Positions 3,950-20,469 of a DNA stretch of 35,220 nucleotides are shown here, piece by piece. Within the stretch, counting starts at the first letter, position 1, and each line of letters opens with the position of its first letter. Origin of the DNA: Clostridiales bacterium (GTDB lineage Bacteria > Bacillota > Clostridia > Christensenellales > UBA3700); contig JAAVHQ010000029.1 in the NCBI GenBank assembly GCA_014799645.1, positions 29,661 to 64,880 of the forward strand, in the 5' to 3' direction. Both the position numbers and the translations under genes were made by a program. A model generated the notes under the pieces. It was not told where the DNA came from. It saw nothing but the letters and a program-made list of their open reading frames with translations, and did no database searches.

Positions 3950-3968
3950 CTTTTCAAAGGAGGTCAAA

Positions 3969-4424
3969 GTGGCGAATATATCCGACGAAATCGAGCAGTT
4001 TATACTCTCTATATGGAATGACGACGAAGAGCTCAAACTGTCGCGCAACGATTTGGCGCAGTATTTCAGCGTTGCTCCCAGTCAGATAAATTACGTGCTT
4101 GCGACCCGTTTTAGTTTTGACAAGGGCTATATCATCGAATCCAAACGCGGCGGCGGCGGTTGCATAACTTTGGTAAGAATAAGCGACGGCAAGGACGAGG
4201 TCTTGCAAGGTATCGTGCAGGAACTCGAAAGTATCGAGGCGTTGTCGTTCAACAGAGCCTGCAACTTCGTGCAGAGGTTGGAGCGCGAAGAGATAATAGA
4301 CGAAAAAGAGGGGGATATAATCAAGAGCGCGATAAGCGACAAAGCGTTGAGTTTTCCCACTCATTCGGCGAACGTCAGGAAAAACGTATTCAAGGAAATC
4401 CTTATTGGATTGATGAGGAGGTAA
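3969..4424 (+). CDS. ctsR: CtsR transcriptional repressor
   Basis: GTG start; ISDEIEQFILSIW...LSRNDLAQYFSVAPSQINYVLATRFSFDKGYIIESKRGGGGCI; operon context. Confidence 0.97.
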   Translation: MANISDEIEQFILSIWNDDEELKLSRNDLAQYFSVAPSQINYVLATRFSFDKGYIIESKRGGGGCITLVRISDGKDEVLQGIVQELESIEALSFNRACNFVQRLEREEIIDEKEGDIIKSAISDKALSFPTHSANVRKNVFKEILIGLMRR

Positions 4425-4426
4425 AA

Positions 4427-4906
4427 ATGCTGTGCGAGAGATGCCGTAAGAGAATGGCGACCACGTTTATGAAAGTCAATGGTTGCGACATGGAACTTTG
4501 CGAAGTATGCGCCTCGGGACTCAATATTTATTCGCCGATGATGGACTTTTTCGATATGTTGTTCGACTTTGACGACTATATTGACGAGAGGTACGAGGAA
4601 AGAGTTTGCCCCAACTGCGGACTTAGGGAAAGCCAACTAATCGAGGGATACAAATTCGGTTGCAGTAAGTGCTACGACGTCTTTGCCGACAAAGCCGACG
4701 AATATTTCAGAGAATTGCGCGGCGTAGAGTATAGAGGTAGATTTGCCTCGACCGCTTCCGCTCGCAAGCATAGATATTTGAAAGACGCTACGAAAGCCGA
4801 CTTACCGCGCTTGTACGAGATGTTGCAAATTCCGTCAATCAAGTCGGACAGCGCAAAGACGAAACTTATTATCGACAAGATAAAGGAACTCGAGGGGGGA
4901 AGATAG
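4427..4906 (+). CDS. mcsA: McsA zinc-binding protein arginine kinase activator
   Basis: ATG at 4427 after GAGGAGG; CxxC motifs CERC, CEVC, CPNC, CSKC; between ctsR and mcsB. The track ORF from 4160 is an upstream extension. Confidence 0.93.
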   Translation: MLCERCRKRMATTFMKVNGCDMELCEVCASGLNIYSPMMDFFDMLFDFDDYIDERYEERVCPNCGLRESQLIEGYKFGCSKCYDVFADKADEYFRELRGVEYRGRFASTASARKHRYLKDATKADLPRLYEMLQIPSIKSDSAKTKLIIDKIKELEGGR

Positions 4907-4907
4907 T

Positions 4908-5900
4908 ATGGTAAACGCGCATAATACGGTCATTTCCAGTAGAGTTAGATTGGCAAGGAATATCAACGGACTGCCTTTTCCGTCAAGGCTTCGAGGCAAC
5001 GAACCGAAATTGAAAGAACTGTATTCCAAGACGAAAGAAGTATGCGACGAGCGATTCAAAAACAAATTCTTCGGAGTGAGCAGTCTGTCGCCATTGCAAC
5101 TCGGGTCGTTGATAGAAAATCATTTGATTAGCCCTGCGCTGTGCGAAAACGAATTCGGCGCGGTGATCATCAGCGACGACAGGACTCTGTCTATAATGCT
5201 CAACGAAGAAGACCATTTGCGAGAGCAGTGCATACTCGGCGGATACAGATTGGACGAGGCTTATAGGACGGTGGAAAGCGTGGATATGGCTTTGAGAAAT
5301 AAGCTCGACGTCGCTTTCAAAATGCCGTACGGACACCTCACTTCCTGCCCGACGAATTTGGGCGCGGGAATGAGAGCGTCGGTAATGATGTTTTTACCCG
5401 CTATGGCGATAAACCATACGATAGATTTAGAGATAAGAAAGATGCGAGAGCGAGGAATTACGCTTCGAGGCGTCTACGGCGAAGGCTCGACGGCGGACGG
5501 GTATATGTACCAAATTTCCAATCAGTCGGCAGTGGGCATGAGCGAGGACGAAATACTTCAAATAGTAAAGAGCGAAGTCGCTAGGCTTTGCGAACTTGAA
5601 GAGCAAGCGCAACACAGTATTAAGAATGAAAATACGTTCGATAGAATTTGGCGCGCGTACGGACTTTTGAGATATGCGAAACAGTTGTGTCAAAAGGAAT
5701 TTGCCGACAATATCGCGCTTGTCAAACTCGGCGTAATTTACGGCTTGTTCGACATAGACATAGATATGCTCAACAAATTGATAAACGATACTCAAAAAAA
5801 TACGCTTATGCTGAATGAGCGAAGGGAACTCAACGCAAACAAGAGGGATCAAATACGAGCCCAAATGATAAACGAAAAATTGAAATTATACAGAATATAA
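4908..5900 (+). CDS. mcsB: Protein arginine kinase McsB
   Basis: VISSRVRLARNINGLPFPSRL..., LTSCPTNLGAGMRASVMMFLP, phosphagen kinase-like. Confidence 0.97.
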   Translation: MVNAHNTVISSRVRLARNINGLPFPSRLRGNEPKLKELYSKTKEVCDERFKNKFFGVSSLSPLQLGSLIENHLISPALCENEFGAVIISDDRTLSIMLNEEDHLREQCILGGYRLDEAYRTVESVDMALRNKLDVAFKMPYGHLTSCPTNLGAGMRASVMMFLPAMAINHTIDLEIRKMRERGITLRGVYGEGSTADGYMYQISNQSAVGMSEDEILQIVKSEVARLCELEEQAQHSIKNENTFDRIWRAYGLLRYAKQLCQKEFADNIALVKLGVIYGLFDIDIDMLNKLINDTQKNTLMLNERRELNANKRDQIRAQMINEKLKLYRI

Positions 5901-5915
5901 TAATGAGGTGATTTA

Positions 5916-8363
5916 ATGGAAGGATTTGATAGCGAAAGCTCTGAAATTATTGAAGTTGCTAAGGAAGCCGCAAGACGAAGCGGAGGCGTGTTGGGAACGG
6001 AACACATTATTTGCGCAATCTCGCTTTGCCCGAAGACCAACGCAGGCATATTGTTGTCCGAGTACGGTATTGACGACAATATCGTCGACCGCTTGCTCAG
6101 AAGCGACGGCACTATATACGATACCGTAAATTTCTCGCCTAGAGTAATAAGCGCGTTGGATAGAGCGAAGAAACTCAGCGAGGAGTGCGATTACAAGGAA
6201 GTCAAGTCGTTGGCGCTATTGAGCGCATGTCTTGAAGACAGGACTTCAATCGCTTGCAAGAGTTTGAGTTACTTTGGCGTTGACGGCGCAAAGATAAGCA
6301 GAGAAGCGGAGAGAATACTCTACAATACCGCCGTAAGACGCAACTTTGAACAAGCGCGCGCATCTTCTGCGGGCGGCAGTCCAAAGTATACGCCACCAGT
6401 CGAAGAAGAGGAAGATGACGACGATATTTTGGAAGGACTTGGCGAGGACTTGACCCAAAAGGCAAGGGACGGAAAACTCGACCCTGTAATCGGAAGAGAC
6501 AGCGAGATAAACAGAATTATCGAGATACTTTCGAGAAGAAAGAAAAACAATCCGATTTTGATAGGCGAACCGGGCGTTGGTAAGAGCGCGGTTGTCGAGG
6601 GATTGGCGCAAGCGATAGTCGAAGGCACAGTCCCAGAACTTCTCAAAAACAAGAGAGTATTTTCGCTCGATATGGCAAGTTTGCTTGCAGGTACGAAGTA
6701 TAGAGGCGAATTTGAAGAACGTCTTAAAAAAGCTATCGAAACGCTCAACAAAAGAGGGGACACGATACTCTTTATAGACGAAATTCACACGATAGTCGGC
6801 GCAGGCAGTACGGAAGGAAGTATGGACGCAGCGAATATTCTCAAACCTCAACTTGCGAGAGGCGAGTTGCAGACGATAGGCGCGACGACGTTGGACGAAT
6901 TCAGAAAGTATTTTGAAAAGGACAGCGCGTTGGAGCGTAGATTCCAGACTGTCGCCGTAGATCCGCCTTCGGTAGACGATACGATTACCATTTTGCACGG
7001 ATTGAAGAGCAAGTATGAAGAACACCACGGCGTAAAGATAGAGGACAGCGCAATAGTCGCCGCCGCAGTGATGAGCGACAGATATATCAACGACAGATTC
7101 TTGCCGGACAAGGCAATCGACCTCATTGACGAAGCGGCTTCAAGAAAGAGAATCAACGGCACGTTGTTGCCCGAGCATATTCAAGACGTTGAAAAGGATA
7201 TTCAAAGGCTCAACGAGGCTATCGACAGTTACGCAGAAATGAGGGCTTACGATAAGGCTGCCGAACTTGACGTTCAGCTCAAAGCCAAAGAAAAGAAACT
7301 TGCCGATTTGCGTAAAGGTTGGACGAAAGAAAGAGTGCGCGAAAGCCTCGTGATTGACGATTCCGACATCGCGAATATCGTATCTTCTTGGACGAAAATC
7401 CCCGTGACGAAAATCACCCAAACGGAGAGCGAAAAGTTGCTGGGTATGGAAGAAATTCTCAAAAAGAGAGTTATCGGTCAAGACGAAGCCGTCGAGGCTA
7501 TTTCCAGAGCGGTAAGAAGAGCGAGAGTGGGCATCAAAGACCCCAAAAGACCTATCGGATCGTTTATATTCTTAGGACCTACCGGTGTGGGCAAGACCGA
7601 ACTTTCAAAGGCGCTTGCCGAAGCGATTTTCGGCGACGAAAACCTCATCGTAAGAGTGGATATGTCCGAGTATATGGATAAGGTCAGCGTGTCCAAACTT
7701 ATCGGTTCTGCGCCTGGCTACGTCGGATTTGAAGAGGGCGGACAACTTACGGAAAAGGTCAGAAGAAAACCTTACTCCGTAGTCCTCTTTGACGAGATAG
7801 AAAAAGCCGACCCCGAAGTATTCAATTTGCTCTTGCAAATTCTCGACGACGGCGTGTTGACAGACTCGCACGGCAGAAAAGTCGACTTTAAGAATACGAT
7901 TATCATAATGACGTCGAATATAGGCGCAAGCGAGATAAAGGCAATGCCCGCGCTCGGCTTTGGAACTTCCGCCGACAACAGTTATGAGAATATGCGCGAG
8001 AACCAAATGCAAGCGCTCAAAAAGACGCTCAAACCCGAGTTTATCAACCGTATCGACGACATCATCATCTTCCGTCCGTTAGAGGACAAGGATATGTCCA
8101 CGATTTTGTCAATAATGGTAGATTCGCTTATCAAGAGATTGGACGAGAAAGATATCCATATCACCGTAAGCGCAAAAGCGCAAAAACTTATAGTCGAAAA
8201 GGGCGCTAATAAAGAATACGGCGCAAGACCGCTCAGAAGAGCGTTGCAAAGAATGGTCGAGGACGAACTCAGCGAAAGAATTCTCAGAGGCGAATTTGCA
8301 ATCGGCGACAAAATCGCAATCGACGAAAAGAACGGAGCGTTGACTTTTTCACCTGCGAAATAA
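5916..8363 (+). CDS. clpC: ClpC AAA+ unfoldase
   Basis: Clp N-domain, Walker [14 protein letters not shown] and [16 protein letters not shown]-like middle region, ...[20 protein letters not shown]. Confidence 0.98.
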
Positions 8364-8428: not shown

Positions 8429-8447
8429 GTCAGTGATTTTTCTATAA

Positions 8448-8486
8448 TGTAAACTAAAGTTGACACTATGTAAACAAAAGTTGACA
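8448..8486 (+). repeat. Paired 18-bp motif, copy A: TGTAAACTAAAGTTGACA / TGTAAACAAAAGTTGACA
   Basis: Two units starting at 8448 and 8469 (21-bp period); same motif pair at 20431-20469. Confidence 0.9.
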
Positions 8487-8543: not shown

Positions 8544-9068
8544 ATGAAAAAGAAAATAGCAATAATACTTTTAGTAACAATACTTTTGACGTCGTGTATG
8601 GCGATACTTTGCTCATGTGCGCAAGAAGAGCCCGAACCAAGAGAGGTGGAATTGGAACTTATCAATCCGACGACGGGTGAAATAATTAAAGATGGAGATA
8701 CCATAGACTTACCAGAAGAGAAGACACCTATTGAAGTGCGTATAAAAGATAAAGAGACAGGCGAGTATTTGACAGACGACGATTTGCCAGAAAATACGGT
8801 TGATGATAGTTACATTACATCTTTTAATATACTCGATAATGAAGAACATCTTTACTTTGGGCGAGTGTATTATTACTGGCCGACTGTGGAAGATATAGAT
8901 AAAGCTTTTAATTGTAATTATTATGAAATGCAAATTTCTTTTGATTGTAGACCAGACGCCCCTATAAATCCACGCGAGTTTAAACGTAAATATAAAATGA
9001 AAACGGATTATGTAAGATTTTATATCAACAAGCCTTGGAGAGATGGGGACGATAGATATAATCAATAA
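8544..9068 (+). CDS. Putative lipoprotein, unknown function
   Basis: GGGGAGAG RBS then MKKKIAIILLVTILLTSCMAILCSCAQ, signal peptide with lipobox-like Cys; no recognised domain. Confidence 0.75.
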   Translation: MKKKIAIILLVTILLTSCMAILCSCAQEEPEPREVELELINPTTGEIIKDGDTIDLPEEKTPIEVRIKDKETGEYLTDDDLPENTVDDSYITSFNILDNEEHLYFGRVYYYWPTVEDIDKAFNCNYYEMQISFDCRPDAPINPREFKRKYKMKTDYVRFYINKPWRDGDDRYNQ

Positions 9069-9088
9069 TAAATGTGGAGAAAATACAA

Positions 9089-12000
9089 ATGAAAACAATG
9101 AGAAGAGAATTGAAAACAATTTTAGTAATTTGCATATTACTCGTAATATGTTTTTCTATTGTATCAGTTTTTTCTAATGAAATTGGAAATTTTGCACTTG
9201 CGGATACAACTGATACAGTTATAGATGAAGAAATTATCCAAACGCGGTGTAAAGAGTTTACAGAAAATATTTATTTTACTGTAAATGATGAACGGCACAA
9301 TATAATGGAATATAGTGATTATATTGATACGACATTTATGCCCAAAAGAGTTTATGATCAAAATGGTAATACAATAAAAGATAAGGTTGATAATTGGATA
9401 AGAAATATCGTACCTATAGAACTTTTTGAACTAAAAAAAGAAAAATTTCTATATATAGGCAGACAATACGGTTTTTATTTTAATTATGATAAAGAAGAAG
9501 GTACATATTTTGTGTATCTAATGTTGCATGAGTATAACAATGATATTTCTGGACATATAACAAGAACTATTTCTCCTTTGTATTATGAAAAATATGTGTA
9601 CGATAGAGAAAAAGATACAATAGCATTGGAATACATAACCGAAGGTTATGACAATATAAGCGCCAAGCCAATCCGCTATTATCAAAAGTATTCGCAAGAA
9701 AAAAGAATCTTTTTGAAAAACATAGCATTTAATGGTCACTTATTAAATTTTAATGATTATAACGATGGAGAAGACTGCTACATTGGTGAAAGTGATAACG
9801 GAGGATACTTTATTGGTGGAAGTTATAAGTTCAAAGGAGTATCGACTAAAGAAGGACAAGGAGATTTCATTGCAAACCTATTTATAATTGCATGCGGTTT
9901 TCTTCCTTCTCCAATGAGCTATGCATCTGGCATTGTAAGCGCATTAAAGGAATTTGAAAATTTTGCACAAGATGCAAAAAATGAATTTAGAGAGGAGATT
10001 ACCAATGAGAATGATTATTCTTTCAGAATGGTTGATATTGAACGTCAAGCGCAACTTGATAAATATGGTCATCTGCTTAAAGACTACATTACGACGCTTA
10101 ATACGCCAAATAATAAAGATGGGGCTTTGTTCGGTATAAATAGTGATGCCTATATACAGGCGACAATGTATTATAAATTTGCGAATGAAGAAAACAAAAG
10201 CAATACGGGATTTGCCGGAAGAATAATGATGGATATTGTGGAAGAGGAAGAGCACTTTGTATCAGGATCAGAAGTTATTCCTATTGCGACAAATGTTGAA
10301 TCAAATAGTTATGCAGTAGATGTTTATAATGATAAATCCATTGAGGTTATTGAAAATGAAACAACAGATATTTATTCATTAACAGGCAGGACAAGCAAGT
10401 TGTTCTTTACCGCGCCAGAAAATGGTGTTTATACTTTTGAGACGTTCGGGTCAGTAGAAAATGAATTCGTAGATTATTTTGGCAAGGCTACCGAGACGGG
10501 CGATGGATTAAATCAAAAGTTGACTGTAACGTTGCGCAAAGGTCAAGAGTTCATTTTTGGCAGCAAAAATGTATCGGGTAACAAGGGAATTTATCAAATA
10601 AAAGTTGAGTTTACTCCTACCGAAATTAATCTTGACGAAACAAAGAGCCTAATAGTAAAAGCCGGAGAGAGCGAATTCTTTTCTTTCAATAATATGGAAG
10701 GATTAGGCTTCAACTATTCTTTGAACAAGACGGGTGATTATTCTGTAAGTATTGCGCTTGAAGATAGACTTAACGTAATAGATACAGCTGTGATGAATAA
10801 AAAAAATACTAGCGCGCTAGTTCCCAAAGTAAAAGGCAAATATTTTATTAAAATTACAAACAACAGCGCAGTTGACGAAGAAGTAGAGTTCACTCTCATG
10901 CAGGCAAAACAAATGGATGTCGGACAAGCCTACAATATAATAGTAGGACATAGAGCGTTGTATAGAATTACGCCGTTGGCAGTAAGCAGTCTTATGGAAT
11001 TCCAATCTCCAACGTTAAAAGACGTCAAGATAAGTCTTTTGGATGACAACTTCAATATCATAGTAGATAAAGACGATATGGTTTCGGACTTAAAAATACT
11101 ATTCGAAGAGGGAAAGACTTATTATTTGCTTTTTGAAAATAGCAACGAATATAATCAACAAGCAGAATTGGCAATATTATATTCTCCATACAAGGTGTCG
11201 TTGGGACGCAATCCTATTACTAAGAGTTACGATAATATGACTTATGAAATCTCTCTTAACACCGACGCTCAAATTATGCTAGAAGCAACTGGCGGTATAA
11301 TGCTTTCTATCTTTGACAGCGAATGGAATGCAATAGAAGAGCAAGACGGCAAATACGCGTTGTATGGTGAGCAAAGATATTTCATTGTTGCTAGCGGAGA
11401 GACTAGAAATTTCGACTTGACGGTTGACGTAGATTCTACTGACCGCCTTTCGGGAGAGATAGGAGAATACGGATATAGATTTATTAAATTCTCGCCTACG
11501 AAGAGCGATACATATGAAGTCAACGGAATGGATTCATTTGAGTGGTACGACAATTTATTAAGACCGCATAGCGAAAAATTGTACGAGGGAGAAACGTACT
11601 ATCTCAAGATATACGGCGAAAGCAATTCCGCTTATGATATAACGATTTTAAGAAAAGTCACTCCAATACCGCTACGGAGCAGGGTGAATCTTGAAAGCGG
11701 AGTCTATTCAGTGACGATAGACGAGCCGGGCGAATACATAATTAGAATGTCGGGGTCAAATGGTGCAATTGCTAATTATAGCGTATTTGATTCTCAAAAT
11801 GCGCTTATTTCCACGGTTGATTCATGTGGGAAACAAATTTTGCATTTGTATTCCGGTATCTATTATATTGAATTAGAAACAAACAACAACGTGGAATTTT
11901 TGATAAATTTCATAAATGCTGATAATATTGAATTCAACACCGATTTGACAGACCAAAAAAATCACAGTGTCGTATTAGGTAAAAATGTTGACAATACTTT

Positions 12001-14944
12001 TGTGTTCATCGCCCAAGAGACAGATGAATATTATTTGACGGTTACTTATTCAGGCGCAAGATGGAATCTTGAAACGTCTATAATAGATGGCAATAAAAAC
12101 GAGGTGGCAGTCAGCGAAGTATATTTGGATGAAATTTCGCAAGGTGTAATATACAGAGTCAAAATGAATCTCATCAAGGGCAATACTTACAATATCAATA
12201 TTTATTGCTCATATGATGACGTTAGCGTGGTAGAAAACGTGACGGCAGAAGTAAAGATATTTATTCCTACTATTATTAAAGACGTCTATTTGATGTCAGA
12301 AGTCGGAAACGTAAAAATACAAATACTTGACGATAGAAAAACGTATGTAGGTCAAAAAATAGGTATAGGTAGAACCTATGTGTTGTTAGTCAAGGATAAA
12401 AATGGACAGGCGATCGACGTCAATTGGGATATTGCGGATTCTACGTCAGCAGAAGTAACTAAAATCAATAATAAATTACGCGCTGATTACATAGAGGATT
12501 ATACAAAAGAAGCGATTGTCTTAACATTTGTGGACGATGACGGGGATTTGTCGATTAGCATTGGTTTGGAAAAGCCATTTGCAGTCAAACTAAATAGTGA
12601 AATAAAAAATGGTAGCGAATATATAAAATCGAATGATGGATATTACAGAACCGAACTCCAAAATGCAGGAATGTATGATTATAATATTGATGCCGAAATA
12701 TATAGAATGGAAATAAAAGTTGGCGAAGTAGTCCTTGGAGTTGATAGCAATGAGTGTTCGTTTTTCACTATGTTTGAGAACGGATTGCCGATTTTTGATA
12801 GCAATCTTCAAATTAGCAGCATGGTATTTATTAGATTTGTTGACAGTGGCGAGTTTGAGGACGAAATCGAATGTAGAGCAATCATATTTAGACTTTTGCA
12901 ATTGAATGACGTATCAAACGATTCGCTTGCAAATGCTCTTGGGGTCATTGTTGATACAAGAAATAGTGACGTGAGCAATAAGTCTTACGAAGTTTCAGCC
13001 ACAACTCCGAAAGTATTGTTGATAGGTGCCCCAAATAAGACTTTGAGCAGCATTAGATTCAGTTTCGCAAAAAAAGCTGATGATAGTAATAATGACGAAG
13101 TAACGTTATTTTTGAAAGATTATAAGGTCAATGCCAACAATAGCACTGTTTTAGATTTACAGTATGTAAATGAAACGAAAGTATTTTTAATCGGCGACAA
13201 TAAAATTACTGGTAGTAGTTCGAATTATTTAGTGAAAGCGAATAGTATTAAATTCTACGGCGAGGGAAGTTTCGGAATTACTGGTGATAACGGAAAAGAT
13301 GGCAATAGAGGTTATGACGGCGATTCCGAAGACTATGTCCCGGGAGCCGCAGGAGAAAATGGTGGCAATGGTACTAACGGCGGTAATGGAACTAGTGCAT
13401 TGTATTGCACCTATATTTTGAATGCAAGCAACAGCGCTATAAAGCTGGCAGGTGGCTCTGGCGGCAATGGTGGCGACGGTGGCAATGGCGGCGATGGATT
13501 TGGTGGTTATTTCAGTGAGGTGCAAGGCGGTGCCGGTGGAAAAGGCGGTTATGGCGGCAATGGCGGTAATAGCGGAGTTGGCTGTTCGACAACCTCGATA
13601 GAAGGTAACGTTGAAATTTCCAACGGAATTCCAGGTTGCGGTGGCAATGGCGGAAACGGTGGCAACGGCGGTTTTGGCGCAGATGCATTGTATTCTATCA
13701 GTGGCGATACTGTCGACGGTTCAAGTGCTTGTAACGGTGGTAATGGTGGCAATGGCGGAAGTTCCGGTTCATGCGGACAGGGAGAACACGATTGTAAAAA
13801 ACCGCGAGGTGGCGACGGCGGCAATGGCGGACGCGGCGGAAATGGTGCGTCATATCAAACCGGTAAAGATTATTACTCGAGATCTGCTCATAAAGGTGGC
13901 AACGGCGGCGCTGGCGGTAGCGGATATTACGGCGGCGCTGGCGGAAACGGTGGCAATGGTGGCAACGGCGCAAAAGGGAAAAATGCTACTTTGACTTCAG
14001 CCGCCGAAGATGGACTTAAAGGCGGCGACGGTGGACGTGGCGGCAGCGGAGGTAATTCAACTTCTTCCGAGGCAAACGTCGGCAAAGGCGGTTCTGGTGG
14101 AATTGGTGGCAATGGCGGCGCTGGCGGAGATAAAAAAACTGTATATAAAGCTGGTGCAGACGGCGCTGACGGAACAGATGGCACGGGTGGAGAAAACGGC
14201 AAATATCAAGCGCCTGGCACTGGTAGCAGCAGCGGTTCATCATCTTGCGTTGCTTTGGGTACTCTTATCACCCTTGCAGACGGCAGACAAGTGCCGGTCG
14301 AGTCTTTGACGGGCGATGAGATGTTGCTTGTATGGAATATGTTTACGGGCAAGTTTGACGTTGCGCCGATACTCTTCCTTGACAAAGACCCTGCGAGGGA
14401 ATACAAAGTCATAAATCTCTATTTCTCGGACGGAACTTGCGTTAAAGTAATAGACGAACACGGATTTTGGGATTTCAATCTCAATAGATACGTTTTCCTA
14501 AGAGATGACGCGTCGCAATACGTAGGGCATTTGTTCAACAAGCAGATAGTGGACGGAGACGGAAATCTCGGTTACATCAAAGTGCAGTTGACAGACGTTG
14601 TCGTGCAGAACGAATACACGTCTGCATGGAGTCCGGTTACGTATGGACATCTATGTTATTACGTCAACGGTATGCTTTCAATGCCTGGCGCAACGACGGG
14701 ATTGATAAACATCTTTGATGTCAACCCCGACACTATGACAGTGGATCAAGACGCATATCTTGCGGATATTCAGAAGTATGGGTTGTTCACTTATGAAGAA
14801 TTTGCCGAGATTTATCCGATACCGGAAATGATATTCGAGGCATTCGGCGGTCAATACCTTAAAGTATCCATAGGCAAGGGATTGATTACTTATGAAGAAC
14901 TGGAATCCCTAATAGCGAGATATTCGGTATTCTGGGAAAGTTAA
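9089..14944 (+). CDS. Giant secreted protein: signal peptide, PPC-like beta-sandwich repeats, PGRS-like Gly/Asn-rich region, C-terminal Hint domain
   Basis: ATG at 9089 after GGAGA (track ORF starts at a GTG at 9074); modules such as YSLTGRTSKLFFTAPENGVYTFETFG; GGNGGNGG blocks about 13260-14220; CVALGTLITLADGRQVPVESLTGDEMLLVWN Hint start at 14246. Confidence 0.85.
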   Translation: MKTMRRELKTILVICILLVICFSIVSVFSNEIGNFALADTTDTVIDEEIIQTRCKEFTENIYFTVNDERHNIMEYSDYIDTTFMPKRVYDQNGNTIKDKVDNWIRNIVPIELFELKKEKFLYIGRQYGFYFNYDKEEGTYFVYLMLHEYNNDISGHITRTISPLYYEKYVYDREKDTIALEYITEGYDNISAKPIRYYQKYSQEKRIFLKNIAFNGHLLNFNDYNDGEDCYIGESDNGGYFIGGSYKFKGVSTKEGQGDFIANLFIIACGFLPSPMSYASGIVSALKEFENFAQDAKNEFREEITNENDYSFRMVDIERQAQLDKYGHLLKDYITTLNTPNNKDGALFGINSDAYIQATMYYKFANEENKSNTGFAGRIMMDIVEEEEHFVSGSEVIPIATNVESNSYAVDVYNDKSIEVIENETTDIYSLTGRTSKLFFTAPENGVYTFETFGSVENEFVDYFGKATETGDGLNQKLTVTLRKGQEFIFGSKNVSGNKGIYQIKVEFTPTEINLDETKSLIVKAGESEFFSFNNMEGLGFNYSLNKTGDYSVSIALEDRLNVIDTAVMNKKNTSALVPKVKGKYFIKITNNSAVDEEVEFTLMQAKQMDVGQAYNIIVGHRALYRITPLAVSSLMEFQSPTLKDVKISLLDDNFNIIVDKDDMVSDLKILFEEGKTYYLLFENSNEYNQQAELAILYSPYKVSLGRNPITKSYDNMTYEISLNTDAQIMLEATGGIMLSIFDSEWNAIEEQDGKYALYGEQRYFIVASGETRNFDLTVDVDSTDRLSGEIGEYGYRFIKFSPTKSDTYEVNGMDSFEWYDNLLRPHSEKLYEGETYYLKIYGESNSAYDITILRKVTPIPLRSRVNLESGVYSVTIDEPGEYIIRMSGSNGAIANYSVFDSQNALISTVDSCGKQILHLYSGIYYIELETNNNVEFLINFINADNIEFNTDLTDQKNHSVVLGKNVDNTFVFIAQETDEYYLTVTYSGARWNLETSIIDGNKNEVAVSEVYLDEISQGVIYRVKMNLIKGNTYNINIYCSYDDVSVVENVTAEVKIFIPTIIKDVYLMSEVGNVKIQILDDRKTYVGQKIGIGRTYVLLVKDKNGQAIDVNWDIADSTSAEVTKINNKLRADYIEDYTKEAIVLTFVDDDGDLSISIGLEKPFAVKLNSEIKNGSEYIKSNDGYYRTELQNAGMYDYNIDAEIYRMEIKVGEVVLGVDSNECSFFTMFENGLPIFDSNLQISSMVFIRFVDSGEFEDEIECRAIIFRLLQLNDVSNDSLANALGVIVDTRNSDVSNKSYEVSATTPKVLLIGAPNKTLSSIRFSFAKKADDSNNDEVTLFLKDYKVNANNSTVLDLQYVNETKVFLIGDNKITGSSSNYLVKANSIKFYGEGSFGITGDNGKDGNRGYDGDSEDYVPGAAGENGGNGTNGGNGTSALYCTYILNASNSAIKLAGGSGGNGGDGGNGGDGFGGYFSEVQGGAGGKGGYGGNGGNSGVGCSTTSIEGNVEISNGIPGCGGNGGNGGNGGFGADALYSISGDTVDGSSACNGGNGGNGGSSGSCGQGEHDCKKPRGGDGGNGGRGGNGASYQTGKDYYSRSAHKGGNGGAGGSGYYGGAGGNGGNGGNGAKGKNATLTSAAEDGLKGGDGGRGGSGGNSTSSEANVGKGGSGGIGGNGGAGGDKKTVYKAGADGADGTDGTGGENGKYQAPGTGSSSGSSSCVALGTLITLADGRQVPVESLTGDEMLLVWNMFTGKFDVAPILFLDKDPAREYKVINLYFSDGTCVKVIDEHGFWDFNLNRYVFLRDDASQYVGHLFNKQIVDGDGNLGYIKVQLTDVVVQNEYTSAWSPVTYGHLCYYVNGMLSMPGATTGLINIFDVNPDTMTVDQDAYLADIQKYGLFTYEEFAEIYPIPEMIFEAFGGQYLKVSIGKGLITYEELESLIARYSVFWES
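13258..14217 (+). repeat. GGN-codon-rich imperfect repeats encoding GGNGGNGG
   Basis: Recurrent ggtggcaatggcggcaacggtggc-type units, in frame. Confidence 0.85.
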
Positions 14945-15097
14945 TATATCAGCTCATACACACATATGTCTCAGATAAGCCCTAATTTACCTCGTTTAGG
15001 GCAGAGCAATTCGTCGTCCCAAAGGGCGACGTTTTGCTATCTTGACTTTTTTAGCGCGATAATATATATTTATTGTGGATAGATATTGAGGTATATA

Positions 15098-15757
15098 ATG
15101 AAAGAGCTAGGCAAATTGGATTTTTATAATCGAATTGACAATTATTGCGATAGAGATACCGAGGTAGTTTATAAGCATTATACCAAAAGCGCGAAGGGAT
15201 ATTTTCTTGATACGTTTTTTGGTTCAATGTTTTGGAAGTTTATGCTGTTTGAATTGGTGGGCGTGTTACTCTATTTATCAGAGCATTATATATCGCACGG
15301 CGAGTTCAAAGAATTCATATATTTTGACTACGTATTTATGGGACTGGGCGCGTTTTTCTATATAGCCCATTTGTGCATCAAACTATGGTTTTGGAAATAC
15401 TCCAAAAACGTAATTGTGACAAATCATGGCATTTGGATAATGTGGTTCAGCACTTTTTGGTGGAGCAAAAACTTCAAGGGCAAGAAGAGAATGTTCAGCG
15501 CAAGTTGGAGTTTATACGCATGGGAAGAGTTGAGCGGAGTATTTGAGGAAGAATGTAAGATATCCAAAATAACCAAGTTGAAAGATTTTGTAATGAATAG
15601 ATGGGACGGCGAAGAAACAGTGCGTTTTCTCCATAGCGCAGACGTCGACGAAATCATTGAACTAAGTATCAAGCATATCAACCCAAGAAAAAGAAAAAAG
15701 CAAAGAGACCCCAAGCTGAAGCCTTTCGGCAAAAAGAAGACGGATTATTATACGTAA
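15098..15757 (+). CDS. Predicted membrane protein of unknown function
   Basis: Two hydrophobic segments (FMLFELVGVLLYLSEHY; FMGLGAFFYIAHLCIKLWF), then a soluble region and a basic C-terminus. Confidence 0.7.
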   Translation: MKELGKLDFYNRIDNYCDRDTEVVYKHYTKSAKGYFLDTFFGSMFWKFMLFELVGVLLYLSEHYISHGEFKEFIYFDYVFMGLGAFFYIAHLCIKLWFWKYSKNVIVTNHGIWIMWFSTFWWSKNFKGKKRMFSASWSLYAWEELSGVFEEECKISKITKLKDFVMNRWDGEETVRFLHSADVDEIIELSIKHINPRKRKKQRDPKLKPFGKKKTDYYT

Positions 15758-15860: not shown

Positions 15861-15893
15861 TTGACAAGAATTGCTTAATTGTTGTAGTATAAT
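15861..15893 (+). promoter_or_regulatory. Candidate promoter of the 15959 cassette
   Basis: TTGACA (15861-15866) and TAGTATAAT (15885-15893); spacing 18 to TAGTAT or 21 to TATAAT. Confidence 0.55.
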
Positions 15894-15958: not shown

Positions 15959-17575
15959 ATGTTAAAAGCAACAACAGAATTATTTATGTCGGAATACTTT
16001 TTGACAAAAGCAATTCTCGGCAAGTATTTGGAAAATGACGAAAACTTGTTTTATTCAATGAGCAAGATTTTCTTGATTTCCGAATCTGAGGCAAAAAGAC
16101 TTTACGGCTTGACGAATAACGATATAGCCAAAGGTATAACAACAGCAAAGGATTTTATGCAACATCAGCGTATGGAGAAGTATTCGGCGCTTACCGGTTC
16201 GGCAAAAAACTCTAACGCGGAGTGGGAAGAAGTGGCTAGAATTAAAGGTAACGCTATTCTTTTTGCGACGGCTTCTAAGTTGGTATCCGATGCGGATTCA
16301 TCTAGGAACGTGGTCTACAACGCGCTATCGAATGCGGTGGCAAGCGGACTTGTATTTGCGACGCGTATTATGGGAGTTTTGCAATGCGAGGGGATATTCC
16401 TAGGCAAGAACGAGGAAGCCGGCGTCAAGAAATTGGCGAAGGCTGCGAATTGGAACGATTGCGTAAGCACGCTCGCGCTTTTGCATTATTGCACTGATAA
16501 CAGGGATTATAATATGGCTCGACTACGTCAAGTGGTGGCGGATTCTCCGTTTGAAGAGTTGTACGCGACAGCGCTCGATTGCTATAACGTGAACGGAACG
16601 GCAGAGATCGAGGGAGTAAGGTTGCTGGAAAAAGCATTTAGTTCTGGGGTATTGAAGAAAGAGGTCTACGACCCACAATACGCAAGAATATTGCACAGCG
16701 CCGCGCTCTCTATCAAAGATAAGGAGCGCGTTATTTTTTCGGGCGACAAAGCTCAACTTTCGACGATAGGCGATTTGCCGTTGAAGTTGACGTTGGACAA
16801 AGTCTCCGCCGTGGATACGTCCGAGTTCCCTTCGCTCGCGCTTAGGCGAAACGACGAAAGGCTCAAGATTGAGCGCGCTTTCAAGAACAGCGATTTGCGC
16901 GGATTGCCGTCGTACCGTCCGATTTGTCTTTGTTGCGAATCCAAGTACGTTCTTAATTCGTACGCTAGAACGTTCGCAAACAAAAGAGAGAATACGCACG
17001 TCGAGATAATAGACGTTGCGGAATTGAGTGAATACGATTTAGAGCCGAGCGCAAACAATATCTTTGTAAGATGCGTTGACGAAGACAAGGACAATCGCTT
17101 TTTGCTTTTCTTCAAGGGAGAGATTTCGGATAGAAGAATGGATGCGGTCAAAGGTATTTTGCAAAGCGCAAGGCGCTCGAAATTCCATTTGAATGCGCCG
17201 GGCGTGACGTTGGATTTGAGCGCGGTATTGCCGATATGTTTTTGCGATAAGGAAAATGCGAAGCTATTGAAACCTTATTGCGACGTGATTCAACTTGCCG
17301 AAACGACAGCCGATGAATTTGCGGACGTCGTGGAAGATATTTTTGCAAGCAAGGAAAAAGTGTACGGTATCGGCAAGATTAAACTCGAAGGCGAAGTATC
17401 GGAAGTATTTGACGGCTTTGACGTAGACACCGCCGAAAAACTCATAGATAGCGCGGTGCGCGCCCGTAGAGAGCAAGGCGCAAATATCACGTTGTCGAAG
17501 GAAATTTTGAAGTCATATTCGGCTGACTATAAAATGCCGAAAATAGGTTTTGGAGGAAACGAAAATGGAAGGTAG
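15959..17575 (+). CDS. Unknown protein; N-terminal helical/Sel1-like half, C-terminal region resembling a degenerate AAA+ domain
   Basis: AAGGAG RBS, ATG; C-terminal half (PSYRPICLCCESKYVLNSYARTFA...NRFLLFFKGEISDRRMDAVKGILQ...LPICFCDKENAKLLKPYCDVIQLAETTADEF...) follows an AAA+-like order without Walker consensus. Confidence 0.6.
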   Translation: MLKATTELFMSEYFLTKAILGKYLENDENLFYSMSKIFLISESEAKRLYGLTNNDIAKGITTAKDFMQHQRMEKYSALTGSAKNSNAEWEEVARIKGNAILFATASKLVSDADSSRNVVYNALSNAVASGLVFATRIMGVLQCEGIFLGKNEEAGVKKLAKAANWNDCVSTLALLHYCTDNRDYNMARLRQVVADSPFEELYATALDCYNVNGTAEIEGVRLLEKAFSSGVLKKEVYDPQYARILHSAALSIKDKERVIFSGDKAQLSTIGDLPLKLTLDKVSAVDTSEFPSLALRRNDERLKIERAFKNSDLRGLPSYRPICLCCESKYVLNSYARTFANKRENTHVEIIDVAELSEYDLEPSANNIFVRCVDEDKDNRFLLFFKGEISDRRMDAVKGILQSARRSKFHLNAPGVTLDLSAVLPICFCDKENAKLLKPYCDVIQLAETTADEFADVVEDIFASKEKVYGIGKIKLEGEVSEVFDGFDVDTAEKLIDSAVRARREQGANITLSKEILKSYSADYKMPKIGFGGNENGR

Positions 17576-19259
17576 AAATAACATCCTTGAAGGATATGAA
17601 AATATGAACTACGTTCATTACGCCGATTCGGCAAGTTTGCCGAATACGGTGGCTTACGACGAGCTTGGTAAAAAGGCAATGTCGGGAGTGCTGAAAGCAA
17701 ATTTACATATAGACGGTAGGCTAATTCAAAGCTATACCGCGCAGGAAAATCACGTCGGAGTAATCGCAGGTACGCGTCTGGGTAAGACAACGTCTTACGT
17801 TATTCCCACGATTCTTTCTTTCGCGAAGCAAGCGATGAAAAGAAGTATGATGATTTCCGATCCCAAAGGCGAGATTTACCGTCACACGGCGGAAACTCTT
17901 CGCGAAGAGGGATACAAAGTCATCTTGCTCAATTTCAGAGACCACTTGCATTCCGAGTGTTGGAATATACTTACGCCGATATTTAGGAAGTACAAGAAAA
18001 TCGACAAGCTCCTAGACGAAGTCAGCGTAGTCGAGACGCCCGACGGGGCGAGAAATACGTTCCGCGGACGCGTATATGACAATCAAGAAGAGCTTGACGA
18101 CGATTTGCAACGCGTCAAGGATATGATGCTCGGCGAAGTGGGCAACGATATTGACAATCTTGGCACTATGTTTGTCGATACCGTAAAGACAAGCGACCCG
18201 TATTGGGAAGACGCCGCGCGCGACGTTTTCAAGGCATTTCTATGGGCAATGTTGGAAGATAGCGATCCCGAAAAATGCGCCCAAACGATTACGGAAGATA
18301 CGTTCTCGTTCAACACCATTTTGACGGCGATAGCTTCGTTTAAGGACGACGACGGCGTATATTATAACGACGGCGGATATTTTTCCAACCGCGAGAATAA
18401 TTCCCGTGCATACGCGTTGGCAAAAAACACCCTTATCGAAAACGGAAGGCCGACTAGAAAATGCGTTATGGGTACGTTGATATCCAAGCTGTCCGTATTC
18501 AACGAAATGATAATTCGCCTCATTACGAGTTGTAATTCGTTTGAAATTTCCGAGATCATCGGCGAACCGATAGCGATATTTATCGACTATCGCGACGAGA
18601 TAAAAGCGCACTACAAACTGATAAGTTTGTTTGTTCAAGACGCGTATAGATTTTTGATAGAGCAGGCGAACGCAAAGCCGAACGGCAAATTGGACGTGCC
18701 TTTCTATTTCATTCTCGACGAGTTTGGCAACTTTCCGGCGTTGAGAGACTTTGAGACGACGATTTCCGCTTGCGCGGGACGCAATATCTTTTTTATCTTG
18801 ATTATTCAATCCTACGCTCAACTCGACAGCGTTTACGGCGCGTCGGTAGCGGAGATTATCAGAGACAATTTGAACGTGCATATCTTTTTCGGAAGCAACA
18901 ATCCAAGCACGCTGGATATGTTTTCCAAAGAGTGTGGAATGCAAACGCGAATATCGCCTTTGAGCGCGCTCAACGGCAAGGGCTCTGAAATCGACACTTA
19001 TCATATCGAGACGATACCGCTAGTTCCAAGAAGTATGCTGTCGCACTTCCAACACGGCGAGTGTATAATTACTGAAGCCAACAGCGGCTACGTTATGTTC
19101 TCCAAGCTCGAACGCTACTATTTATGCGACGAGTTCAAAGACTTGAAACTTGCATCCGAAAAAGAATACTTATGCAATATCAATCCGTTCGACAAGCGTT
19201 ATACCTACGTGATGCCAAAGCCTCAACCGAGGAAAGCGCGTAATCCGTTTAGTTTTTAA
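17565..19259 (+). CDS. VirD4/TraG-like (T4CP, FtsK/HerA superfamily) ATPase without N-terminal TM helices
   Basis: GGAGG RBS then ATG at 17565 (track ORF starts 17550); Walker A AGTRLGKT, MISDPKGEIYRHTAETLREEGYKVILLN, Walker B FYFILDEFGNFP, ...FFILIIQSYAQLDSVYGASVAEIIRDNLNVHIFFGSN. Confidence 0.9.
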   Translation: MEGRNNILEGYENMNYVHYADSASLPNTVAYDELGKKAMSGVLKANLHIDGRLIQSYTAQENHVGVIAGTRLGKTTSYVIPTILSFAKQAMKRSMMISDPKGEIYRHTAETLREEGYKVILLNFRDHLHSECWNILTPIFRKYKKIDKLLDEVSVVETPDGARNTFRGRVYDNQEELDDDLQRVKDMMLGEVGNDIDNLGTMFVDTVKTSDPYWEDAARDVFKAFLWAMLEDSDPEKCAQTITEDTFSFNTILTAIASFKDDDGVYYNDGGYFSNRENNSRAYALAKNTLIENGRPTRKCVMGTLISKLSVFNEMIIRLITSCNSFEISEIIGEPIAIFIDYRDEIKAHYKLISLFVQDAYRFLIEQANAKPNGKLDVPFYFILDEFGNFPALRDFETTISACAGRNIFFILIIQSYAQLDSVYGASVAEIIRDNLNVHIFFGSNNPSTLDMFSKECGMQTRISPLSALNGKGSEIDTYHIETIPLVPRSMLSHFQHGECIITEANSGYVMFSKLERYYLCDEFKDLKLASEKEYLCNINPFDKRYTYVMPKPQPRKARNPFSF

Positions 19260-19272
19260 GTGAGGTAATACT

Positions 19273-20058
19273 ATGAATGCAATGGAGATAATCGACTATA
19301 TCAAACAATGTGGCAGGATTGAAATTCCCTCAATGCAGTTGCAGTTGGGCATCACTTATAAGGAAGCGAAATCTATCGTAGACGACTTGCTTGAAAAATG
19401 TCAACTCGTCTATGAGAATGGTTTGAGTTACGTATACTTAGAAACGTTGGACAAAAACAGTGAGGAAAAGTCGGACGAGGAACAAGATAATGACGAGGAA
19501 GATGAAGACGAAGAAGATGAGGAAGAGGACTTTGACGATGAGTATGAATCCGAATTCGAAAAATTCCTTGAAGAGCAAGATGAATACGAGAACGACGACG
19601 AAGAAGATAAGAAGAAATTTAAGGCGCATATTGACGAATCCGAAACTCAAGATATTTATAAAGCGTTTAGAAGGGCGAAGACGTTTAATGATATTGAAAG
19701 TCATATTAGACGTATCTCGGCAAAGCGAAGAGAGGCAATTCAAAATCTTGACAACGTTTTGGATAAACTCATTTTGGAAAAACAAAAACCGATTTCAGCC
19801 AATTACCGTCCTCAGCATACGTTGTGGGAGGATGGCCTTGAGTTTATGGAAGCGGTAGATGAAAGATTGGAAAGGCTAATTAAATCGGATAGGAAGATGG
19901 GAAGAAAAGGCGCGATCAAAAAGGCGTCAGCGTACTTAGAAGCCGTGAAAGACACGTGTGATGGGAAGATGGCGCAAGTCTACGAAAGACTAGTCTACGA
20001 AATCATAAACACGAGCGACTATACTTACGCGCAAATGAAAAAACAAATTTGGGAGTAA
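19273..20058 (+). CDS. Acidic protein with N-terminal winged-helix (FtsK-gamma-like)
   Basis: IIDYIKQCGRIEIPSMQLQLGITYKEAKSIVDDLLEKCQLV resembles FtsK gamma; then a D/E-rich linker and a helical C-terminus; 13 bp after the T4CP-like gene. Confidence 0.65.
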   Translation: MNAMEIIDYIKQCGRIEIPSMQLQLGITYKEAKSIVDDLLEKCQLVYENGLSYVYLETLDKNSEEKSDEEQDNDEEDEDEEDEEEDFDDEYESEFEKFLEEQDEYENDDEEDKKKFKAHIDESETQDIYKAFRRAKTFNDIESHIRRISAKRREAIQNLDNVLDKLILEKQKPISANYRPQHTLWEDGLEFMEAVDERLERLIKSDRKMGRKGAIKKASAYLEAVKDTCDGKMAQVYERLVYEIINTSDYTYAQMKKQIWE

Positions 20059-20061
20059 ATT

Positions 20062-20409
20062 ATGGCTAAGCATTTTATGAAATTAAATTCCGAGCCTTTC
20101 GATAAAATAAAAGACGGCTTAAAGACCTACGAACTTCGCTTATATGACGAGAAACGTAAGCTCATTAAAATCGGCGACTTCATCGAATTCACAAAACTTG
20201 GCAGTACTGAAAAATGTACTGTTAGAGTAACCGATTTACGTCTCTTTGGTAGTTTTGAAGAATTATATGCCACACTCCCTTTACAACAATGCGGTTATAC
20301 ATTGGACGAACTTGAAAAAGCAAGTCCGACGGATATGGAAAAATACTATTCCAAAGAAGAGCAAGCGCGCTATGGCGTAATCGCAATAAAAATTGTCTTT
20401 TATTGTTGA
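20062..20409 (+). CDS. ASCH-domain protein
   Basis: MKLNSEPFDKIKDGLKTYELRLYDEKRKLIKIGDFIEFTKLG typical of ASCH. Confidence 0.85.
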   Translation: MAKHFMKLNSEPFDKIKDGLKTYELRLYDEKRKLIKIGDFIEFTKLGSTEKCTVRVTDLRLFGSFEELYATLPLQQCGYTLDELEKASPTDMEKYYSKEEQARYGVIAIKIVFYC

Positions 20410-20430
20410 AAAAGTCGAAAAATATTGTAA

Positions 20431-20469
20431 TGTAAACTAAAGTTGACGCAATGTAAACTAAAGTTGACA
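20431..20469 (+). repeat. Paired 18-bp motif, copy B: TGTAAACTAAAGTTGACG / TGTAAACTAAAGTTGACA
   Basis: Units start at 20431 and 20452 (21-bp period), same orientation as 8448-8486. Confidence 0.9.

Follow-up and report, generated by a model that had tools for sequence, protein, structure and literature searches.

What does an ATPase of the VirD4 type do in a chromosome when it has no membrane anchor and stands beside no conjugation gene? This question is raised by the 35,220 nucleotides analyzed here, a stretch of contig JAAVHQ010000029.1 of a Clostridiales gut bacterium (hereafter, the window). An open reading frame (ORF) check found three genes in it, all on the + strand, at the coordinates given by an earlier note made from the sequence alone. 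Gene A (15959-17575, 538 aa) encodes a protein modeled as a Sel1-repeat and Lon-fold pseudo-AAA+ protein. Gene B (17565-19259, 564 aa from the ATG at 17565, with a TTG at 17550 as a possible start) encodes an ATPase of the VirD4 or type IV coupling protein (T4CP) type, devoid of transmembrane (TM) segments. Gene C (19273-20058, 261 aa) encodes an N-terminal FtsK-gamma-type winged helix, an acidic linker and a helical C-terminus. A and B overlap by 11 bp, or by 26 bp if the TTG is used, and 13 bp separate B from C. We state with strong confidence, at the level of the genes, that this is a conserved and non-conjugative cassette, with a layout for which no description was found in the open-licence literature searched. 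It sits in the chromosome as an accessory module and forms no part of a conjugation system. As the best explanation, we tentatively propose that A docks the B motor onto ClpP while C targets the complex to DNA.

Conservation and co-inheritance of the cassette

Scanning GTDB contigs with an alignment of B yielded 51 loci, nearly all in uncultured, Clostridia-type metagenome-assembled genomes. Gene presence was read from all ORFs of each locus; choosing the longest ORF gave antisense ORFs in several. In 48 of these 51 loci, A is the gene just upstream of B; the layout that the earlier note had found unfamiliar is real and conserved. An FtsK-gamma-like winged helix-turn-helix (wHTH) protein, as a rule bearing an acidic linker, closely follows B in most loci. 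In an even sample of the source's order (396 genomes), the cassette occurs in about 9% of genomes: A was detected in 36 and B in 35, A being present in all 35 genomes with B, while a divergent B adjoins A in the lone A-only genome, G391. The lack of co-occurrence that the note had named as grounds for abandoning its reading was therefore not seen. The association between A and B is extreme (Fisher p ~2e-49), with the reservation that the 396 genomes are not phylogenetically independent. A is immediately upstream in 35 of 39 B copies, with a gap of -8 to +47 nt. The other four copies belong to four genomes of one genus, in which A and B are both present but unlinked; their retention in spite of this argues for a functional bond over mere linkage. 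B and C, for their part, remain together where A lies elsewhere (loci L070, L073, and L075). L064 and G374:C19 seem to be one and the same record, and A is found on another contig of genome G374. In a phylum-wide sample of 399 genomes, the source genome alone matched, which suggests that the cassette is largely confined to the source's order.

Presence and absence were also seen at a single locus. Genome G004, a close relative of the source with a ClpC 98% identical and the same neighborhood, aligns with the window up to 15036 and resumes at 20428, 21 bp replacing the 5.4 kb of the window. The segment 15037-20427 (no strand) is missing from this empty site, which makes the module accessory, either gained in the source or lost in G004. 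No obvious repeats were seen by eye at the borders of the inserted segment, and the contig flanks on both sides consist of ordinary chromosomal genes.

A soluble VirD4-type ATPase outside conjugation

B carries the Pfam domains T4SS-DNA_transf (PF02534, 4e-51) and TraG-D_C (4e-25), and scores 240 bits against NF045973, the CD1115 family of NCBIfam, below the curated cut-off of 250. Its Walker A motif (AGTRLGKT, 17766-17789, + strand) retains GKT/GKS in 52/52 homologues, and its Walker B motif (FILDEF) lies at 18708-18725 (+ strand). The window's B starts about 70 residues ahead of Walker A (median, 74), with no hydrophobic segment in between. Indeed, the maximal 19-residue hydropathy is at most 1.32 in 52 B homologues, versus 2.85 in the T4CP of the same genome that is typical of an integrative and conjugative element (ICE), to which B is 31% identical over the whole ATPase. 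In the tree, B falls within a TM-less VirD4-like clade (36 rows, support 99/98).

No conjugation gene was found in the window, and no PF03432 relaxase in the source genome, for which all genome-wide statements refer to targeted searches. Another contig of this genome encodes a TM-bearing T4CP with a 1618-aa ORF next to it (L018:11636-13858, contig C25 of G000), and this region is possibly an ICE, the lack of a PF03432 relaxase in the genome notwithstanding. A had no match in plasmid or phage collections, the best plasmid T4CPs listed were less than 30% identical to B, and no recurrent mobile-element family was found among the neighbors of the cassette; an ICE, plasmid or phage origin was rejected on these three grounds. 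The PF02534 match and the hydropathy scan agree with the earlier description of B as a T4CP-type ATPase lacking a TM anchor. The view that no conjugation gene accompanies it also held: neither conjugation genes just outside the window nor an association with ICEs came to light, nor any association with plasmids or phages.

The pseudo-Lon protein and its C-terminal tail

Searches of gene A against Pfam, NCBIfam and PADLOC returned no match at a useful score. Its AlphaFold2 model, built with 47 homologues (mean predicted local distance difference test, pLDDT, of 89.6), has a helical N-terminal half. Profile comparison with Sel1 proteins of the PDB (7.7e-7) placed a Sel1-like repeat there, at about residues 117-167 (16307-16459, + strand). 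A Lon/ClpX-like AAA+ domain follows at about residues 298-521 (16850-17521, + strand). The top PDB matches of this alpha/beta domain are the AAA+ domains of Lon proteases (Foldseek E 4e-6; TM-score 0.54 by target length against 6n2i), and the profile of A also picks ORFs of ClpX and Lon size, assigned by size only. The Walker A (P-loop) is absent across the 47-sequence alignment and the Walker-B Asp is also gone, while the sensor-2 Arg is retained in 37 of the 47 sequences. In the window's model, the beta1-alpha1 turn, where a P-loop would be expected, is three residues long. The single GxxxxGK[TS] match among A proteins, in L022, looks by eye like its C-tail. Because the Lon AAA+ fold is found here without Walker A and without the Walker-B Asp, A is, as modeled, a Sel1 and pseudo-Lon/ClpX protein which has lost its active site. 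In six genomes (G067, G263, G374, G174, G354, and G123), A was read with one internal stop codon; pseudogenes, frameshifts and assembly errors are the alternatives here.

After residue 526, the tail of A is predicted to be disordered (pLDDT <50 at IGFGG). Its IGFGG motif (residues 529-533; 17543-17557, + strand) resembles the docking loops of ClpX and ClpC. Every A tail carries [I/L/Y/F]-G-[F/Y] as part of a hydrophobic-G-F-G-G motif that hardly varies, with Gly530 and Phe/Tyr531 found in 47/47 sequences and variable flanks. Clp ATPases dock on the H-pockets of ClpP by means of flexible (L/I/V)-G-(F/L) loops (PMC8745299). The window's tail fits this pattern within a flexible element, and docking on ClpP is predicted on this basis. 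The ClpC encoded in the window reads ALGFGTS, with a docking-like LGF.

A cassette-encoded ClpP with an altered docking site

In 26 of 52 loci, the gene immediately before A encodes a ClpP, often with an overlap, and a DUF1292 gene is found nearby in 16 loci, usually upstream of ClpP. The cassette ClpPs (PF00574, 1.6e-54) all retain the catalytic Ser, His and Asp. The genomes with a cassette ClpP that were tested also contain a second, housekeeping-type ClpP. The two types differ at the H-site: in the LY-INSPGG strand, cassette ClpPs have Gln instead of Tyr in 28 of 29 cases and Phe in one, while the Tyr is present in 7/7 housekeeping copies. Positions were matched to those of SaClpP by the register of the Y63-I64-N65 strand; Y63 of SaClpP forms part of the ADEP-binding site, and the Y63A substitution opens the gate (PMC9035409).

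The tail of A varied with the presence of ClpP. IGFGG and LGFGG were read mostly in ClpP-less cassettes, and YGFGG, FGFGG and FGYGG together with ClpP. For seven tails, overlapping matches made a manual reading necessary. Aromatic tails accompany a cassette ClpP in 30 cases and occur without one in 6; aliphatic tails occur without it in 21 cases and with it in 0. On the A tree, ClpP presence changed at least seven times. L041, which clusters with L033, L036 and L043, has no cassette ClpP and reads IGFGG versus their Y/FGFGG. In L076, a divergent cassette, a gene for a YgjP/SprT-like metalloprotease (8606-9583) stands between ClpP and A; this single case would fit the removal of proteins from DNA.

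Gene C and its possible FtsK ancestry

Nothing above threshold was obtained for gene C in Pfam, NCBIfam or PADLOC. The N-terminal winged helix of the window's C (residues 3-55; 19279-19437, + strand), delimited by the AlphaFold2 model and the family profile, is well predicted, its structural match to FtsK-gamma being of generic wHTH quality and its FtsK_gamma score, 14.3 bits, sub-threshold. At the level of the family, the Pfam FtsK_gamma model matches 19 of 33 members (best 1.6e-23), and the C-family profile matches FtsK-gamma in the PDB (1.6e-5). In L033 and L036, the N-terminal wHTH of C is followed by an FtsK motor, its Walker motifs intact, and a gamma domain, the L033 protein having the complete alpha-motor-gamma architecture and that of L036 the motor and gamma. 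A degenerate motor is found in L043 and L046, and the window's C has no RecA-type motor, only the wHTH and helices being left. It is plausible that C descended from an FtsK-type protein and lost its motor beside B. The earlier suggestions of a possible pseudo-AAA+ protein upstream of B and of a detached FtsK-gamma-like wHTH downstream were both well founded, the former in the light of the AlphaFold and Foldseek results, the latter at family level more than in the window's own protein. A normal FtsK-sized protein with a gamma domain is encoded elsewhere. The idea that the cell has no FtsK or ClpP besides C and the cassette ClpP was rejected, further copies being present in the genomes tested.

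A simpler sister pair

ATPases of about 600 aa, here called B-prime, belong to the same TM-less clade and stand beside Sel1 proteins of about 300 aa, A-prime, homologous to the N-terminal half of A (hhalign 7e-14). Such pairs were located at L122:5998-8786, L123:6368-9113, L124:4256-6994, L125:6769-9515, L126:6963-9704, L127:5406-8157, L129:2568-5377, and L130:5468-8391. They have no AAA+ domain, no C and no operonic ClpP, and A-prime has I/L/V/A-GF at or near its end. B-prime was found in 13 of the 396 genomes, each of which also had an A-type match. These pairs indicate that the core is a soluble VirD4-like ATPase with a GF-tailed Sel1 protein, to which the AAA+ domain, ClpP and C are additions. 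In L126, two divergent ClpP-like genes adjoin the sister pair. The sister pair, the recurrent ClpP and DUF1292 genes, the docking-like tail of A and the forms of C with an FtsK motor are all absent from the earlier note.

A tentative mechanism and its rivals

From a mechanistic point of view, we infer that A docks on ClpP, that B drives a ClpP-based machine and that the complex is targeted to DNA for a biological purpose, as follows. B, a soluble VirD4-type ATPase that would be hexameric by family, would supply ATP-driven threading. A, or A-prime, would act as a Sel1/pseudo-Lon scaffold bridging B to ClpP through its flexible C-tail, like the IGF loops of ClpX and ClpC. Where the cassette has a dedicated ClpP, this tail would dock on it, and otherwise on the housekeeping ClpP, as in the window, whose aliphatic IGFGG tail would suit the latter. 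C, with its FtsK-derived winged helix, would bring the complex to DNA or to DNA-bound targets, and the machine would strip DNA-associated proteins or thread them into ClpP by means of B translocation. Defense and the clearing of DNA-bound proteins would be the leading possibilities as to function. In its fullest form, that of a VirD4 ATPase rewired through a dead Lon-like scaffold to power ClpP, hence of a protease machine driven by a T4CP/FtsK-class and not an AAA+-class motor, with an FtsK-gamma-type DNA guide and a co-evolved docking pair of ClpP and tail that is orthogonal to its housekeeping counterpart, the proposal is doubtful.

Several points weigh against this mechanism. The correlation of tail and ClpP draws on few independent events, and its paired test, with 2.9 concordant and 0 discordant pairs, was not significant. 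Six aromatic tails have no cassette ClpP; L022 and L030 are cut near A on the upstream side, so that their lack of ClpP is uncertain and the count is weakened by two. Half of the cassettes encode no ClpP, that of the window among them. The aromatic first residue falls outside the published (L/I/V)-G-(F/L) pattern, L053-L056 having FGYGG. The docking motif of Clp ATPases is an internal loop of the motor and not a C-tail, and the tail of A could equally bind B. We know of no T4CP-type motor that unfolds proteins into a peptidase.

A DNA-processing machine without proteolysis would use B as a cytosolic translocase loaded and steered by the wHTH of C, with A as an assembly scaffold and ClpP, where present, regulating turnover only, and would act on the chromosome or on foreign DNA, like split FtsK/HerA systems. 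B and C both belong among the VirD4 and FtsK motors, two of the C proteins are full FtsK motors whose Walker motifs are intact, and genes B and C stay together in the three loci where A lies elsewhere. However, this explanation leaves the dead Lon-like domain, the IGF-like tail and the recurrent ClpP with its altered pocket unaccounted for, while the sister pair does without any C, and we consider it rather unlikely. An anti-phage or anti-plasmid defense module, whatever its biochemistry, would be patchy, horizontally moved and variable in its parts. The cassette, present in about 9% of the order's genomes and clearly present or absent at one locus between near relatives, with homologues only about a third identical within one genus, has such a profile. 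Some of its neighbors are TIR, BspA-LRR, AAA+, trypsin-like or Sel1 proteins or PADLOC-listed genes. Yet the neighbors are mostly housekeeping genes, and PADLOC 2.0.0 returned no convincing defense-system match for the cassette proteins, B being weakly similar to mad8 of MADS8 (3.7e-6), A and C to none; this explanation is conceivable, if on the unlikely side.

Export of proteins, in which B would drive the secretion or processing of the adjoining giant surface proteins, had been raised in the earlier note. As general knowledge, T4CPs can recruit protein substrates, and the only Hint-domain giant of the source genome lies one gene upstream of the cassette, with Hint giants also just upstream in L054 and L055. 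By contrast, giants of at least 1000 aa are common (1.75 per 100 kb where the source genome was sampled), G004 keeps both giants of this neighborhood without the cassette, most cassettes have no such giant nearby, and B has no membrane anchor. A general link between cassette and giants was rejected, leaving the adjacency in these three genomes, and the export role appears very unlikely. The remnant of an ICE, or a mobilization helper in the form of a class-iii T4CP lacking a TM domain (TMD) and working with a type IV secretion system (T4SS) encoded elsewhere, is disfavored and hardly to be expected. TMD-less T4CPs do exist, such as TraJ of pIP501, which is paired with a membrane partner (PMC7431656), and the genome has its other T4CP on C25. 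Against this stand the separate, supported TM-less clade, the obligate A partner, the lack of a PF03432 relaxase in the genome and of recurrent mobile-element genes nearby, and the absence of A from plasmids and phages. Docking of the B motor onto ClpP through A is thus kept as the best, though tentative, explanation.

Other features of the window and neighboring genes

The accessory segment contains two further genes, both on the + strand. One (15086-15757) encodes a predicted membrane protein of 223 aa, with no homologue in the compared loci. The other (20062-20409) encodes an ASCH-domain protein (PF04266, 9e-10), which is probably a passenger because no homologue was found beside the cassette in the first loci compared. 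A sigma-70-like promoter candidate precedes A (TTGACA-18-TAGTAT, 15861-15890, + strand), by consensus match only. Among Rfam elements, only the tRNA was matched. A few genes upstream of the cassette, positions 3954-8363 resemble a ctsR-mcsA-mcsB-clpC heat-shock operon, on the basis of ATP:guanido phosphotransferase and ClpB-type AAA matches, the remaining genes being judged by eye.

The Hint-domain giant (9074-14944) is a secreted, Gly-rich protein of 1956 aa, whose C-terminal Hint-like (CVALGTLITLADG) domain was named by eye, with no Pfam match. Tandem pairs of ATGTAAACTAAAGTTGACA were observed at 8447-8486 and 20430-20469 (four matches versus 0.01 expected by chance). They precede the lipoprotein/Hint-giant genes and the second giant gene, and do so in G004 likewise. 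These pairs may form a shared operator-like element for giant surface proteins.

Other observations concern the neighbors of related cassettes. A TIR protein with a ThsB-like domain (L122:2835-3653) is encoded near a sister pair, and a predicted defense helicase, PDC-S53, follows the cassette of L052 (12733-16026). Near several cassettes, RuvB-like AAA+, trypsin-like and other proteins have a fused N-terminal stretch of helices, about 100 aa long and similar in appearance (L053:1873-3453, L033:17766-18788, L045:579-2120, and L072:11596-14720), as if an effector set had one adaptor domain in common. Finally, 10 loci share a conserved protein of about 250 aa, encoded upstream of the cassette (L045:6602-7378, L053:6582-7286, L054:6656-7333, L055:6566-7276, and six others); two members had no Pfam match.

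Implications and comparison with known systems

T4CP-type motors have been described in conjugation and secretion, and to our knowledge all ATP-dependent ClpP machines reported so far rely on an AAA+ unfoldase. If the proposed mechanism were true, it would constitute a third use of the T4CP motor class, and the evolutionary wall between transfer and proteolysis motors would fall. Even without the ClpP link, there is a clade of TM-less VirD4-like ATPases that has departed from conjugation and is co-inherited with a single partner; its members are likely to be labeled as conjugal transfer proteins by automatic annotation. The covariation of tail and pocket offers swappable residues as a sharp handle on docking.

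Compared with known systems, B shares with VirD4/TraG proteins (CD1115, NF045973, PF02534) the nucleotide-binding domain with Walker A and B, but differs from them by the lack of a TM domain and of T4SS or relaxase partners, by its own clade and by its constant association with A or A-prime. Like class-iii T4CPs such as TraJ of pIP501, it is a soluble ATPase of the coupling-protein type for which a partner protein may be necessary; those T4CPs are part of conjugative plasmids and their possible partner is a membrane protein of the T4SS, whereas the partner of B is a Sel1 and pseudo-Lon protein. As for MADS8, its mad8 protein is weakly similar to B, while A and C are matched by no PADLOC model. 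Lon and ClpX resemble A in the fold of its C-terminal domain, and its tail recalls a ClpP-docking loop. However, A has no P-loop, Walker-B Asp or protease domain, it possesses Sel1 repeats, and its motif is located in the C-tail. C has the gamma-type winged helix of FtsK/SpoIIIE, with the full architecture in L033, but no membrane domain, and the motor is decayed or absent in most C proteins. The cassette ClpP retains the catalytic triad and PF00574 signature of ClpP; it differs from the usual enzyme by the Tyr-to-Gln change at the H-site and by sharing an operon with a T4CP-type motor rather than an AAA+ unfoldase.

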